In this document: one piece after another, positions 30,251 through 59,227 of the stretch
Position numbering within the stretch: position 1 is the stretch's first letter
Layout of the letters: each line of letters starts with the position of its first letter
Assembly: GCA_944325625.1 (NCBI GenBank)
Contig: CALVAP010000001.1
Location: forward strand, 73,649-137,648
Direction: 5' to 3'
From: Candidatus Gastranaerophilales bacterium
Lineage (GTDB): Bacteria > Cyanobacteriota > Vampirovibrionia > Gastranaerophilales > Gastranaerophilaceae
Length of the DNA: 64,000 nt
Translations under genes and position numbers: made by a program
The notes under the pieces: generated by a model
Databases searched by the model: none
The model's input: the letters and a program-made list of their open reading frames with translations, nothing else
What the model was told of the DNA's origin: nothing

Positions 30251-30280
30251 GGAAAGTGTGAAAAGAAAAGGAATAATTAA

Positions 30281-33200
30281 TTGAAAATAATATCATTTGG
30301 AAGTCGCAGAGAGGATTATAATAATTTATCAATTTTAAGTGAAGGCACAGAGATGATGACACCCCCAAGGGCAAGACTTGTGCAGCAGGCTATATCTTCG
30401 ATTTCAAAGGACAATTCACCAAAGCATTTAGACTATCTTTTTAATGTAGCAAAGAACAATAAGTACGGATTACTCCCAAATTCAGCATTAAGAGCATATT
30501 TAGAGCGAAATTCGACTATAAGTGAAAAATTCGAGAATAATGATTGGAGTGAAGAACTCCAAAATTTAATAAAAAAAGCTATAAAACGCTTACCCAAAAC
30601 TCGTAGAGAAAAGTTTTTGGATGAGTACTATCGGATATTTGTAGAACAACAAAATCTTACTGGCTATGAACACAAACTTGTAAAATTTAGAGAAAAAATA
30701 ATATCTTCCGAGCCATTTAAAAAAGCGCAAGAAGAAAATGAAAAGATATCCGAACCCCTAAAAAACCTTGACTATTTTATAGCCTCTTCAGAAACACCAA
30801 CAAAAACTAAGGTTTATATCTTGTCAAAACTTAATTACTTTTTAAGTCCGGACTATAAAATAGATGAACAGCTAAAGGATAAAAAGTTTCAAGTATTTTC
30901 AGAGATAGTTAATGATTTGGTAATTAAACGTCCAGATAAAGAGGTTTACAATTCAAAACAGTGTAACCAAAAAAATCATGGTTCCTGTGCGGCTATATCA
31001 GCGGCAAGAAAGTCATTATTGTATGAAGACAAAAAAGCATATATAGATGTTTTGTTACAGGAACTTAGTGCAGAACCTTATTTAGAAGTATATGACATAA
31101 CGAGATTAAGCGAATACGAAAAAGACTCTCAAAAGTATGAAAGAGAAAGAGCACCGAAAGTATTTGTAGAAAAAACGAGAATAAATTATGAAGCGGCGCT
31201 CAAAGATGGATACAGAATAATAGATGCATCAGCTTTACAATGGATGAAAGTAGCCGGAACCGTAGGTGATGGAACGATTCAAGTACAAGATTATTATGCT
31301 TTTGATGAGCGGCACAGAGGCTTTATGAAAGATTCAAGGGTTGTTATAAGTCTGGAAGATGAATATGCAACAGAGCATGAATTTTTGCGTGGTCTTATAA
31401 AAAGCAAAAAACTGATAAAAGCGTATGATAAGTCAATTATAGACTCTAAGACGCAATCAGGGATAAATAGAGCGGATGATTTTTTATTGGCAAAAATGAA
31501 AGATGAAAAGGCAGAGTTGATACGCAATGTAATACGAGATATTGTGCCTGAGTATTCAAATTTTGAACTAAATAATTTAATAAAACAATTTGAAAATCCA
31601 TCTAATATAGATACTGCAAATAATGAACAAGCATTAAGAAAGCAGGTAAAAAGCTACCTGATGAAACATATTGGTCCGGCTCGTGAAAAAGACATAGAAG
31701 GAAAACTCGATGAATTAATACCTCTGGTTAGAGAATATAAATCTTTGGCATCTAGGATGAAAGTGGGAAGAAAAACACTGAGTTCAGAGGCTAAAAAGGC
31801 GGAAAGGCTGTTTAAAATAGGCTTGGCACAGCGTGAAGTTCTATCATTACAGCTAAAATTTTTAAGCCTTAGAGAAAGATTATACGCTGATTTAAAAATG
31901 CCGGATAGATATACGCAGATAAAGGATTATGTAAGAAAACTTAAGAAACTTGCAAAAACAAAACCGCAAAGTCCTTTAGTATTAGCACTGAAAGCCAAAA
32001 ACAAAATGGATGATAAAAGTTTGTATGATTTGCTTGATGCATATGATAAAGAGCTTTCAGTAGAAACTCCCAAAAAACTGGATGAACTTTTGACTGTTTA
32101 TAAGACCAGCTACAAAGATATTTTGATACGAACTTTAAAAGCCAGACTTAATCAGCATAGAAAGGGTGATTATAGTTATATGAATTATGTATCGGATGAA
32201 TTAGATTTCATTCCTGATGCTAAAAAGTTTGATAAGAAACTCTCTGGCGTAATAGAGAAATTGGAAGCTGCCAAAACAAATGAAGAAGTGCAAAATGCTA
32301 TATCACAGCTAGGGGTTCATAATCAAATCAAAATCATTTCTTTTGCGATAGACAATTCTACAGACTTGCTTCAAGGGCTTTTGGTAGACGAAAGATTGGA
32401 AGAAGTGAAAGCTATGCTCAAAGGCGCAGATGATCTTGACTTTTACGGGGTATGTGAGCTTTTAAAAAGGACAAATACAGAGGTAAATAATTGTATAAAC
32501 AAAATAGATGAAATTGCACAAGATGTAATGATGCCATCAGAGGAAGAAGTAATACTAAGGGGTTATGAAGCGAAAGGTGAAATACTTACCAATGAAGCAT
32601 TAGATAATTTAAGAGCAAAGTTCCATAAAATATACAAAGCAAGAACTGAAGTAAATGATAACTTGATAAAAACAGGAAAGGGTAAGGTTAATCCTGATTT
32701 ATATAAATTCAGTGAACAGGAAAAAAGACATTTAAAGCAGATAGAACGTAAAATACCTAAATTCAGGCGTCAGGTAAAAAGAAACTATGATATTATGAAC
32801 AGAAGTCTGCAGGAAAAACTGGATTACTTATACGAGAGCATAGGCAAACGCAAAGGTCATTTTTGGATGTTTGAAGAAGTTCATTCCGGTTTACACACGG
32901 ATGAACAGATACGAATAATAGAACAAATGACAGGACGTGCTTATCATATAGAAAAAGACATAGACAAGGCAGTAGCGCATATAAAGAGTGGATTAGGCTC
33001 AGGTGTCTCCGGCACGAATGTTGATTATAATGATTTCTCTGGTCATGCTCAGTATTTAGCTGATGTAAAACCAGTAGAAATAAAAGACGCTAAAAATAAC
33101 AAAACAATAGTAAAAGACGTAATATTGCATGACAACACATGGGGAAGTGCAGAACAGGAGAGGTTATGGCAAGGGGCTGATGGGCTTGAACATACAGATT

Positions 33201-36136
33201 ATAAAAGCTCATTAGGTGGACCTGGCGGTTTTGTAGTATCGGAAAAGTCTTTGGCAGGCTCGTTAGTAGATAGTTATAAATACGATTATGGTATGTGTGA
33301 TTATGATAGAGATATAAGAGCGATAGACGGTCCGCAAACGGAAATTGAAGTTGAACTGGTAAAATACGGTATATTTAATGATGTAATATTACCGGGTGAA
33401 GATTTTAGAACAAATAGAAAGATGCAAGAAATAATATCTTGTATTTTCAATTGTAACAGAGCAGAATCTTCGATAGAAGAATTAAAAAAAGCTATAAGAG
33501 AAAATGGATACAATGTAAATATAAAAGTGCTTAAGGAAGTAGACGAAAAAGTATCACAGCGAGTTGAGGGTGTTTTAGCAAGATTAACCGGTACAGGCAG
33601 TCAACCGGCTATGACCATAGAGCAGTTTAATGCTTTAGCAGAAAATGATCCGTTAAAAATTATTATACAAAGGCATATTTTAGAAAAATATTGTGAAGAA
33701 AATAACGAGTATGAAACGAATTCGGCAAGATATGAGGACATAGAGGAGATATATGGGCTTAAAACTCAAGAACAAATAAATGAATATATGTCCAATAACT
33801 TAAAAAGTTATAAGGACTTTCTTGCTCAAATTGTTTTCAAACGACTTGAGCCGGAGACAAAGAAAGAGATACTGAAAAGTTTATCAGAAGCAGCAGATAG
33901 CCTTATCCGTATAATAGAGAGAAATAGCGGAAAAGAACTCAAAGGTTTGAGGGAGGAACTTTCAAAAAGCTTTAAAGAGATTTTGAATTTACCGTACAAT
34001 GGAAGTGGTTTAGAAGTGGCTCAAAGGATAACTGATAAAGCTGCCGAAATCGGAAAGAAATATGCCAAGTCTAATAAATTAGAATTATCTGTCGCTGGTT
34101 CATTGGCGAATGCTATAGCTGACGAGATGGATGAAATACTTGTACCAGAAAGTATAGATGCAATTTTAGATCAGGAATGCGGGGAAAGTATAGTCCATTT
34201 CATAGATAAAAAATTTAATCCACAAACAAATGAAGAATGGATGGATGCACTTGTCGAGATGGTGAATATGACAAGGGCTGAATATAAAAAATTAATGAAA
34301 AATGTAACACTTGAAGATTTCGGCATTAAATATGATACACCCGAGAACGTGATAAGACTTATACAAGCTGATAATTCGTTGGAATTGAAGAGATTTAAAG
34401 AAGCAGCAAGATTATATTATTTTGATGATTATGTTCAGCTTGAAGAAGCTCGTGAAGGGGTAAATAAGACAAGTAAAGAAGTCGCTAACTTCAATAATGT
34501 ATATAGAACACTGTCGGTTGATATAGGAGAAATTGGAGCAAACAAATATGTACAAGAAGCGAAAAACGAAGTTTTTCGAAAGTATAATGCCAGACCGGCA
34601 ATACCGCAGGTTGTAGTAGTAGATAATGAAACAATAAAAAACATATTGAAAGAGAATATGCAAACGATTGCATCAAAGATGCGTGATATATTGAGTAGTA
34701 CCAGACTGGCCCAGTACATAAAAGAGGTCGAAGACATAAATGACCTTAGTGCTGCCTATACAGAAACGGCAGACCCTGTAATAAAAGAGAGGTTAATCGG
34801 GCACTTAAATTCATTGAAAGAAATGCTTCAAAATGAAGCAGAGTTCAAAAAAACATATGTTGTTACTAAGAAGTTGTTAACAATGTTGGAAAAAGGTTTA
34901 ATTAAACCGGCAGACTACAAAAAATGTATTAGTAAAATTAATGCAGAGAAAGAAAACATAACTCAAGGGTGTACATTAGATATTCTCAATAAAAGAATAA
35001 TCAGATTAAAAAAGGACTTGCAAGCCACTATTAATTCTTTTATAGAGAGTAATTTCTTTCCGAAATTTCAATCGAGGGCAAGAGGTATCATAAATGATTG
35101 GATAAGAAACGTAATTAAAGGTGTGGATTCGGATGTTTTGATAGCACATACTGAGTATTGTATAGAAGGATTAAGCGGAAGGCAAGTTTTGAACGAGCCG
35201 CAAGAGCTATTGGAATACTATGTTACAAAATTTTGTGAAAAGAGAAAAGCTGCTGATGATGGTGATGATGAAATATCAAAAGAAACTATAGAAAATCTGG
35301 AACAGCAATTGGGATTGGTTTGTAAAAAAGCCAATAGGGCAAAACTTGAATACAAACTGATGTCAGCGGCAGCTAATGGAATTGCTTCAAAAATAGGTGA
35401 TTATGTCAGAGCAGAAAAATTCATATCATATCAGGCAAATGGAGAGAAGAAAAAATTAAATAAAAATGACTTGTTGGGATCGATAATATCCTTACTTGCA
35501 GATAGGGCAAATAATCATTCTTCGCTAGCTCTTTTCATTGAACAATCAGGCTTGAAAAAGGAGTATGTTGATTATCTGACTTCGAGAAAGCCAGAGTATA
35601 TAAAATATAAACTTGAAAAGAAGTTACAGAAACTTATAGAGACAGCAAATACTTTAAACATAATAAATCAGATATATGAAGTACAAAAGGCAGCCTTTGA
35701 GGGCATTAAGGTAACAGACAGAAAAATCTTGAGTGATATGATGAGAGAATTCATTCAATATTATGAAGAATTGGACTCCGACCTCCCTGTCTCTGCGAAG
35801 ATAATTGAAGAATACAAAAATAACTTCAGAAAAATATGTGAAAAAGTTGAGCTGAAAAGTGATTATGACATGGTAGAATTAATGGACGAAATTCATCTTC
35901 AATGTAAAGAGATAGTAAAGAGTGAATTATTATCTGCAGTAAATGAATTTAATACAAATACAATAATACCGCAAAATCATATAGAATTAATGGATGCACT
36001 AAGTCTTCCGTTAGGTAGTGAGGAAGAAAGAAAAAGGGCTGAGTATAAAAAGTCGATAGAAGATGTAGTTATACCATTTGCCAAAAGTGCAGGGCAAAAG
36101 ATAACTCCAATGATTAACGAGTTGATGAATTCGTAA
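30281..36136 (+). CDS. Giant (1951 aa) helical protein with papain-like protease motifs
   Basis: No family is recognised over the full length. The start is TTG 30281 with AAAAGGAA 7 nt upstream. The protein lacks a signal peptide or membrane segments and is mostly charged helices. Residues 228-240 read C-N-Q230-K-N-H-G-S-C236-A-A-I-S: Gln six residues before Cys, as papain's oxyanion Q19 and nucleophile C25. A G-H922-A-Q-Y-L strand and H-D-N952-T-W954-G match the papain His and Asn-Ser-Trp-Gly motifs. Between the half-domains (about 400-850) lies a helical insertion of about 450 residues. Residues 1000-1951 are helical with no motif seen. The motifs are seen; protease activity is inference. 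Confidence 0.8.
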   Translation: MKIISFGSRREDYNNLSILSEGTEMMTPPRARLVQQAISSISKDNSPKHLDYLFNVAKNNKYGLLPNSALRAYLERNSTISEKFENNDWSEELQNLIKKAIKRLPKTRREKFLDEYYRIFVEQQNLTGYEHKLVKFREKIISSEPFKKAQEENEKISEPLKNLDYFIASSETPTKTKVYILSKLNYFLSPDYKIDEQLKDKKFQVFSEIVNDLVIKRPDKEVYNSKQCNQKNHGSCAAISAARKSLLYEDKKAYIDVLLQELSAEPYLEVYDITRLSEYEKDSQKYERERAPKVFVEKTRINYEAALKDGYRIIDASALQWMKVAGTVGDGTIQVQDYYAFDERHRGFMKDSRVVISLEDEYATEHEFLRGLIKSKKLIKAYDKSIIDSKTQSGINRADDFLLAKMKDEKAELIRNVIRDIVPEYSNFELNNLIKQFENPSNIDTANNEQALRKQVKSYLMKHIGPAREKDIEGKLDELIPLVREYKSLASRMKVGRKTLSSEAKKAERLFKIGLAQREVLSLQLKFLSLRERLYADLKMPDRYTQIKDYVRKLKKLAKTKPQSPLVLALKAKNKMDDKSLYDLLDAYDKELSVETPKKLDELLTVYKTSYKDILIRTLKARLNQHRKGDYSYMNYVSDELDFIPDAKKFDKKLSGVIEKLEAAKTNEEVQNAISQLGVHNQIKIISFAIDNSTDLLQGLLVDERLEEVKAMLKGADDLDFYGVCELLKRTNTEVNNCINKIDEIAQDVMMPSEEEVILRGYEAKGEILTNEALDNLRAKFHKIYKARTEVNDNLIKTGKGKVNPDLYKFSEQEKRHLKQIERKIPKFRRQVKRNYDIMNRSLQEKLDYLYESIGKRKGHFWMFEEVHSGLHTDEQIRIIEQMTGRAYHIEKDIDKAVAHIKSGLGSGVSGTNVDYNDFSGHAQYLADVKPVEIKDAKNNKTIVKDVILHDNTWGSAEQERLWQGADGLEHTDYKSSLGGPGGFVVSEKSLAGSLVDSYKYDYGMCDYDRDIRAIDGPQTEIEVELVKYGIFNDVILPGEDFRTNRKMQEIISCIFNCNRAESSIEELKKAIRENGYNVNIKVLKEVDEKVSQRVEGVLARLTGTGSQPAMTIEQFNALAENDPLKIIIQRHILEKYCEENNEYETNSARYEDIEEIYGLKTQEQINEYMSNNLKSYKDFLAQIVFKRLEPETKKEILKSLSEAADSLIRIIERNSGKELKGLREELSKSFKEILNLPYNGSGLEVAQRITDKAAEIGKKYAKSNKLELSVAGSLANAIADEMDEILVPESIDAILDQECGESIVHFIDKKFNPQTNEEWMDALVEMVNMTRAEYKKLMKNVTLEDFGIKYDTPENVIRLIQADNSLELKRFKEAARLYYFDDYVQLEEAREGVNKTSKEVANFNNVYRTLSVDIGEIGANKYVQEAKNEVFRKYNARPAIPQVVVVDNETIKNILKENMQTIASKMRDILSSTRLAQYIKEVEDINDLSAAYTETADPVIKERLIGHLNSLKEMLQNEAEFKKTYVVTKKLLTMLEKGLIKPADYKKCISKINAEKENITQGCTLDILNKRIIRLKKDLQATINSFIESNFFPKFQSRARGIINDWIRNVIKGVDSDVLIAHTEYCIEGLSGRQVLNEPQELLEYYVTKFCEKRKAADDGDDEISKETIENLEQQLGLVCKKANRAKLEYKLMSAAANGIASKIGDYVRAEKFISYQANGEKKKLNKNDLLGSIISLLADRANNHSSLALFIEQSGLKKEYVDYLTSRKPEYIKYKLEKKLQKLIETANTLNIINQIYEVQKAAFEGIKVTDRKILSDMMREFIQYYEELDSDLPVSAKIIEEYKNNFRKICEKVELKSDYDMVELMDEIHLQCKEIVKSELLSAVNEFNTNTIIPQNHIELMDALSLPLGSEEERKRAEYKKSIEDVVIPFAKSAGQKITPMINELMNS

Positions 36137-57886: not shown

Positions 57887-59227
57887 CTACCCTTTATGTT
57901 TATCAGTTTTTCGTTTTGAGTTTTTGTTATTTTTTCTGTACCAGTAATATATTGCTCTGGAAAGTCTGTTTGAACTATGTCTTACAAAACCTTCTTTGCT
58001 ATCTTCAATTAATTTCCTTGAAACAATTTCTACTCCCATAGCCTTTAACTTGTCTTCATCAATTTTTACGGGGAAAGAGTTCGCCGCAAGGTATTTTTCT
58101 GCGAGTTTTTCCGGCAAAGAATCATTAACGAGAATTGCCTCAACTATTTTACTAGAACCTGCATGTTCAATTATAGCATTTAAGTGCTCAGAGGCTGTGT
58201 AATTATCCGTTTCACCGGGCTGGGTCATTATGTTACATACATATATTTTTTTTGCGGTTGAGAGTGAAACTTCCTTTGCAATTTCTTTAATTAGCAAATT
58301 GGGAATGACGCTGGTATAAAGGCTTCCTGGACCTAAAATTATTAAATCGGCATTTCGGATTGCTGTTATTACTTCGTCTAAGGGTTTACAGTTTTCAGGG
58401 ATTGTAAAGAGTCTTTTAACTTTTCCCGGAGTTTCAGGAATATTGGATTCCCCATTTACAATCGTCCCATCTTCAAGCTCAGCTGCAAGTCGCATATCAT
58501 CTAAAGTAGAAGGTAATACGCGACCTCTAATAGAGAGAACCTTAGAAGACTCCTTAACCGCATTAACCATATCACCAGTTATAGAACAAAGTGCAGTAAG
58601 AAATAAATTCCCAAAGCTGTGGCCTTCCAATCCCTCTCCTGTTTTAAATCGATATTGGAATAATTTTGTGACCAAGTCTGCATCATCAGCAAGGGCTGCA
58701 ATACAGTTTCTAATGTCACCCGGAGGCAATACTCCCATTTCTTCTCTTAATCTTCCTGATGAGCCACCGTCATCACCTACGGTTACTATCGCTGTTATAT
58801 TATTTGTTATGTGCTTTATTCCTCTTAACAAAGTAGAAAGCCCTGTTCCCCCGCCTATTGCAACAATTTTAGGCCCGTAATTTAGCTTTCTTCTGCGATA
58901 TAGGATGTCAATAAGTGCATTTTTATCTCTGCTTTCGTGCACATCTAATATTGAGTAGTTTGCATTTTTCCAACCAATAAAAAACACTAAAGCCCCAATA
59001 ATTACAAATATCCAAGCGAACAATTCTGAAGGAACAACGCTGGCTAGGGATTTAATCCATTCCATTATTGAAAGCACCGGTCTTAGGTCTAGCAATATAA
59101 GAACTCCTAATCCGGCGAGAGTTACACCTCCAAAAATCGCAAGCAACCACCTTTTTACCTGCATTCCGGGAATAAGCCAAGTTGCATCTTTTGGGATTTT
59201 TACATTTTTATTGAATATTTTAAACAT
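57887..59227 (-). CDS. yvcK: Gluconeogenesis factor YvcK family, membrane-anchored
   Basis: This 446-residue protein has two N-terminal membrane helices (about 28-46 and 70-86) followed by the CofD/YvcK domain (about 118-435): V-A-I-G-G-G-T-G-L-S-T-L-L, TVGDDGGSSGRLR, PPGDIRNCI and GPGSLYTSV. YvcK proteins bind UDP-GlcNAc and control carbon flow and cell-wall synthesis. The added membrane anchor is typical of cyanobacterial-type members. GGAG precedes the ATG. Confidence 0.9.
   Translation of the reverse strand: MFKIFNKNVKIPKDATWLIPGMQVKRWLLAIFGGVTLAGLGVLILLDLRPVLSIMEWIKSLASVVPSELFAWIFVIIGALVFFIGWKNANYSILDVHESRDKNALIDILYRRRKLNYGPKIVAIGGGTGLSTLLRGIKHITNNITAIVTVGDDGGSSGRLREEMGVLPPGDIRNCIAALADDADLVTKLFQYRFKTGEGLEGHSFGNLFLTALCSITGDMVNAVKESSKVLSIRGRVLPSTLDDMRLAAELEDGTIVNGESNIPETPGKVKRLFTIPENCKPLDEVITAIRNADLIILGPGSLYTSVIPNLLIKEIAKEVSLSTAKKIYVCNIMTQPGETDNYTASEHLNAIIEHAGSSKIVEAILVNDSLPEKLAEKYLAANSFPVKIDEDKLKAMGVEIVSRKLIEDSKEGFVRHSSNRLSRAIYYWYRKNNKNSKRKTDKHKG

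Follow-up and report, generated by a model that had tools for sequence, protein, structure and literature searches.

A divergent family of giant cysteine peptidases of predicted papain fold, probably calpain-like, in Gastranaerophilales

Introduction

The described enzymes that come closest to the giant protein analysed here belong to clan CA, in which an oxyanion-hole Gln accompanies a helix that opens with the catalytic Cys, and a His and an Asn or Asp follow on a beta barrel. Animal calpains depend on calcium for activation, and secreted C1A enzymes have conserved disulphides. With the calpain-like family C2 (PF00648), the giant family shares the order Q-x5-C, HA, N-x-W-G as well as the lack of conserved disulphides; the calpain motif W-x-x-L-x-E-K-A is matched by W-M-x-x-A in the giant family, and the calpain LTG stretch by ‘MTGR’. 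It differs from these enzymes by an insert of ~485 residues, a helical N-terminus of 223 residues, and a 940-residue tail. With the papain family C1 (PF00112), the catalytic residues, their order, and the Q-x5-C spacing are shared, and falcipain-2 is the best structural match, but the huge insert and tail and the absence of conserved disulphides set the giant family apart. Staphopains (C47) share the predicted papain-like right-domain barrel, but are small secreted enzymes without a sequence match to the giant family. The modelled right half-domain was also matched to a CdiA-CT (8ssk) and the toxin of a toxin/immunity pair (9l5u), each with a Foldseek probability of 0.5-0.7; however, CdiA-CT and other polymorphic toxins are short C-terminal domains accompanied by immunity genes, whereas the core of the giant family is internal to a very large protein and has no conserved partner gene. 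Ubiquitin-specific proteases (PF00443), finally, carry an insert of beta ‘fingers’ that grips ubiquitin, in contrast to the ~485 predicted helical residues of the giant family.

Large insertions in papain-like enzymes have been reported (PMC10318531), and the principle of a catalytic domain split by an insertion is therefore not new. What appears to be undescribed is the family itself, its size, its taxonomic restriction, and a helical arm at the junction of the half-domains: a literature search returned no paper on papain in Gastranaerophilales, and, judging by titles and abstracts, the papers found on Vampirovibrionia peptidases do not appear to deal with such a family. Here, we describe a new divergent family of papain-fold cysteine peptidases that, as judged from sequence and predicted structure, is probably calpain-like and very likely active.

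Gene and Protein Layout

The gene is located in a stretch of 64,000 nucleotides (“the window”), which corresponds to bases 73649-137648 of contig C1 in an assembly of 1.70 Mb and 17 contigs (Table 1). An earlier note on this DNA had described an open reading frame of 1951 residues, and the gene is indeed intact, with a TTG start and no internal stop. In a homologue from the same genus, the start codon at the corresponding position is likewise TTG, preceded by a similar ribosome-binding site. Elsewhere in the family, interrupted copies occur: two are split into two open reading frames (L088, L092) and two others contain one in-frame stop each (G286:C40, G372:C50), which may reflect sequencing errors or decaying genes.

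In agreement with the signal peptide-free protein described earlier, the sequence shows neither a hydrophobic signal nor a membrane-spanning stretch; its highest Kyte-Doolittle mean over 19 residues is 0.91. Residues 1-6 are modelled with a pLDDT below 50, while the remainder of the conserved N-terminal motif forms the start of a helix. For the tail of 939 residues, composition alone suggests a helical structure.

Table 1. Features of the giant peptidase gene in the window, and export gate genes elsewhere in the same genome (G000).
Feature	Position	Strand	Basis
Likely ribosome-binding site AAAAGGAAT, just upstream of the TTG start	30266..30274	+	Sequence; similar site in same-genus homologue
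Gene for giant papain-fold (probably calpain-like) cysteine peptidase, 1951 aa	30281..36136	+	Sequence, family alignment
N-terminal helical region, residues 1-223, ~31-53% pairwise identity (50-residue bins)	30281..30949	+	Model, conservation
N-terminal motif F6-x3-R10-x-D12-x-N14 (family form FxGxREDRN)	30296..30322	+	Family alignment, model
Left half-domain with Gln and Cys, residues 224-357	30950..31351	+	Model, conservation, profile alignment
Q230, oxyanion-hole Gln, invariant (81/81)	30968..30970	+	Family alignment
C236, nucleophile, invariant (81/81), opens modelled helix 236-249	30986..30988	+	Alignment, model
Helical insert between half-domains, residues 358-842, ~215 residues shorter in a subgroup	31352..32806	+	Model, conservation
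Right half-domain with His and Asn, residues 843-1012	32807..33316	+	Models, Foldseek, profile alignment
H922, invariant (82/82), inside modelled strand 921-935	33044..33046	+	Alignment, model
N952 of N-T-W-G, invariant (81/81), directly after modelled strand 942-951	33134..33136	+	Alignment, model
C-terminal tail, residues 1013-1951, poorly conserved, probably helical (composition alone)	33317..36133	+	Conservation, composition
Two flagellar-type gate sets	G000:C6:11690-20006, C6:38392-43465, C2:84423-86784	+, -, +	FlhA/FliP Pfam matches and by eye

Conservation of the Catalytic Residues

The Gln/Cys/His/Asn marks, which had been proposed to occur in papain order, are present as described: Q230-x5-C236 is found within NQKNHGSCAAIS, followed by G-H922-A and N952-T-W-G. 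In an alignment of 84 de-replicated sequences, whose members are 24-43% identical to the window protein, all four residues are retained in each of the 81 or 82 members that cover the respective position; the papain-like catalytic set thus passes the check on homologues that the earlier note had proposed. C236 occupies the only alignment column in which Cys exceeds 30%. Near-invariant columns (at least 98.5% conserved) number 47, and 32 of them are located in the two half-domains, which comprise 304 residues together: 18 at residues 224-357 and 14 at residues 843-1012, next to 12 at residues 1-223, a single one at residues 358-842, and two in the tail. Mean pairwise identity is ~49-64% near the Cys half and 42-57% near the His/Asn half, and drops to 20-36% across most of the insert and tail. 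In a subgroup of ~12 sequences, Cys and His are separated by 467-490 instead of ~700 residues, which implies that the insert tolerates the loss of ~215 residues. The Q-C-H-N set is more than a chance occurrence.

Predicted Structure and Fold Matches

An AlphaFold2 model of residues 1-1060, calculated from an alignment of 69 family sequences, reached a pLDDT of 88.5 and a pTM of 0.82. In this model, a helix (236-249) starts at C236, H922 is positioned at the start of a strand (921-935), and N952 lies just past another (942-951), so that alignment and modelled secondary structure give the arrangement of residues that characterises clan CA. Residues 360-842 are modelled exclusively as helices, which bears out the proposal of a large helical insert (residues 358-842) splitting the catalytic set. 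The half-domains are predicted to follow each other as in papain and to be parted at their junction by ~485 residues that form a helical arm.

The right half alone (residues 846-1045) was modelled with a pLDDT of 87 and a pTM of 0.77. When compared to the PDB with Foldseek, its listed matches with a probability of at least 0.5 were falcipain-2 (0.94), staphopain (0.80), the CdiA-CT toxin (0.69), and a papain-like toxin (0.51), and the listed matches of the whole model at this level are likewise papain-like; E-values were > 0.05 and TM-scores < 0.4. No PDB match had an E below 0.001, TM-scores were mostly 0.2-0.4, and no calpain was found among the best 50 matches. A comparison of the 1060-residue model to viral structures yielded coiled-coil noise and was set aside.

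Affinity Within Clan CA

Searches of Pfam, NCBIfam, and PDB returned no sequence match. The earlier note had assigned the protein to family C1; while the papain-like catalytic set on which this assignment was based stands, the family label does not. PF00112 had no match in the genome of the window or in an hmmscan of the protein and its family members, and the suggested profile comparison with C1 yielded only short, motif-length alignments. The C1 profile is poorer (6 sequences, Neff 2.6) than that of C2 (13 sequences, Neff 4.3), and the comparison is therefore not even-handed. Membership in C1 was dropped on these grounds.

A longer alignment was obtained with family C2: a family profile freed of the insert (residues 205-357 and 862-1012) aligns over 190 columns with the C2 profile, which was built from calpain-like proteins of Cyanobacteriota, and Q…C, HA, and N-x-W-G are in register. 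The alignment score of 28.45 was reached by none of 250 column shuffles (maximum 25.2) and compares to 12.6 for the reversed profile; the E-value is 0.0034 for one comparison. W321-M322 and M883-T884-G885 fall on conserved calpain positions in this alignment, and the calpain-like set itself was confirmed by matches of its members to solved calpains (L216, E down to 5e-9; L226, E 0.0012). The cut-off of PF00648 was not reached, with a best E of 0.029 in one of 68 members and no match in the genome of the window. The methods thus disagree, as the sequence profile favours C2 whereas Foldseek favours C1/C47, and the family is therefore placed in clan CA as a member of neither, probably nearest to C2.

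Other calpain-like proteins that match PF00648 are encoded by Gastranaerophilaceae as well (L225-L233 and others). These open reading frames of ~250-1600 aa, present in one to three copies per genome in 28 sampled genomes, contain the motif QGxxGDC and sometimes HAYS…NPW; several of the matches are weak. They probably form an expanded set.

Distribution and Evolution

With a profile of residues 1-1060, the family was detected in 134 of 383 Gastranaerophilales genomes, representing 26 of 52 genera, and when genomes sampled from across the phylum were searched, all 48 positive ones belonged to this order. A contig scan across all GTDB species, in which the single protein found nothing as query but the alignment succeeded, retrieved 111 relatives, and 79 of these loci were retained. 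Their titles refer to Gastranaerophilales, Melainabacteria, or a cyanobacterium, or they are untitled gut MAGs. One exception, a 3.5-kb contig titled Clostridia that carries a family member (L125), is probably misbinned. No member was found in the phages, viral contigs, and plasmids searched, and carriage by phages or plasmids was discarded as an explanation; PADLOC gave no match that would point to anti-phage defence, and the best match in PHROGs had an E of 0.09.

The gene is a solitary one, surrounded by housekeeping genes. Its neighbours are common to loci of the same genus only and are not kept across the family, and they were dismissed as a clue to function. Between the window and loci of the same genus, the protease is 35-36% identical, as opposed to ~60-96% for 16 nearby genes; the protease evolves much faster than the genes next to it.

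Putative Mechanism and Role

Alignment and model make it highly probable that the protein is an active cysteine endopeptidase with a papain fold, closest to the calpain-like branch. Cys236, activated by His922, would attack the peptide bond, while Asn952 would hold His922 and Gln230 would shape the oxyanion hole. Presentation or gating of the substrate might fall to the helical N-terminal region together with arm and tail, and the enzyme would therefore cut a large partner at few sites instead of digesting proteins at random. As both a Sec signal and conserved disulphides are missing, the compartment of action is probably reducing, i.e., the cytosol of the producing cell or, if the protein leaves by a non-Sec route, another cell.

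It is quite conceivable that the peptidase remains in its own cytosol and performs a regulated, calpain-like limited proteolysis of endogenous proteins, with the arm and tail regulating the enzyme or recruiting substrates. No export signal was found, the gene is single-copy in most genomes, and copies are mostly intact with an invariant active site. Moreover, the family is not obviously bound to gut hosts alone, since one member (L112) stems from Melainabacteria GWA2_34_9, probably an aquifer genome. However, the protease is missing from about two thirds of the genomes, near relatives included, and a divergence this far above that of neighbouring genes is not what a housekeeping enzyme usually shows. 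Given its fast evolution and scattered distribution, a partner under conflict, either a competitor or a host, is plausible.

More tentatively, the protein could be an effector or toxin with targets in a host or competitor, whose proteins it would cut after export by a non-Sec route, e.g., through a flagellar-type gate. Its rapid divergence and scattered occurrence, the lack of a Sec signal or membrane segment, a conserved N-terminal motif that starts with residues modelled as disordered, and the papain-like toxins among the fold matches are in line with export. Candidate gates exist: FlhA is present in 383 of 383 genomes of the order and FliP in 97 of 98, and the genome of the window harbours three FlhA-type genes and two flagellar-type gate sets. 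The first set consists of FlhA-FlhB-FliR-FliQ-FliP, the second of FlgB-FlgC-FliE-FliF-FliH-FlhA-FliI with a separate FliP-FliQ-FliR. The second type appears to occur throughout the order irrespective of the flagellar gate, and many genomes appear to carry this type only. For Melainabacteria, incomplete sets of flagellar genes, along with two flhA genes, have been listed before (PMC3787301). Away from both sets, a 488-residue protein (G000:C13:63190-64656) matches the FlhA family over its C-terminal half alone (profile 321-655, E 2e-49).

Several observations argue against export. The export genes, being found throughout the order, do not track the protease; because FlhA is universal, its presence cannot discriminate, and a tie between protease and export machinery was abandoned. 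VirB4, indicative of a type IV secretion system, was not found in the genome of the window, no secretion, chaperone, or immunity gene is linked to the family loci, and L112 is of probable aquifer origin. An N-terminus like that of the protease ([NSP]F[KRST]G) was seen by eye in unrelated open reading frames (L070:1873-2892, L107:2951-7027, G000:C6:43560-44944 and 57913-58977). ‘FxG’ N-termini are not enriched in random stretches of the same genome (p 0.11-0.24) or of genome G093 (p 0.59-1.0), and another test on random stretches counted 20 where 15.6 were expected; the flanks of homologue loci gave p-values down to 0.0002, which are probably inflated by some recurrent families. A common N-terminal export tag was consequently dropped. 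With these results, an endogenous role is at least as likely as a foreign target, and the most specific proposal, i.e., lineage-specific giant calpain-like effectors of gut cyanobacteria that pass the second flagellar-type gate and perform limited proteolysis in host or competitor cells, seems quite unlikely.

In transglutaminases, NAT, and deamidase effectors, the third catalytic residue is mostly Asp. Asn in N-x-W-G, together with the oxyanion Gln, instead resembles the peptidase families C1 and C2 and renders it unlikely that the papain fold serves amide transfer here (as a deamidase, transglutaminase-like enzyme, or ligase) and not proteolysis, although thiol chemistry of other kinds has evolved on clan CA folds more than once (PMC10318531). 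That the motifs arose by coincidence in a helical structural protein without enzymatic function would agree with the absence of a significant database match to any peptidase family, but is extremely improbable: the invariance of the four residues strongly disfavours it, and the sole conserved Cys, the conservation in two islands, the secondary structure of the model, and the alignment with the calpain profile point in the same direction.

Significance

Gastranaerophilales are common bacteria of the animal gut, and almost none of their proteins that act on other proteins have been characterised. The putative peptidases constitute an unnamed enzyme family that about one third of these genomes encode. 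Its architecture escapes sequence searches: the catalytic half-domains are predicted to be separated by a helical arm of almost 500 residues and to be flanked by long, probably helical segments. If the enzyme is active, C236 would be a defined residue to mutate, and the family would provide a way to ask whether giant cysteine proteases act on self, competitors, or hosts.
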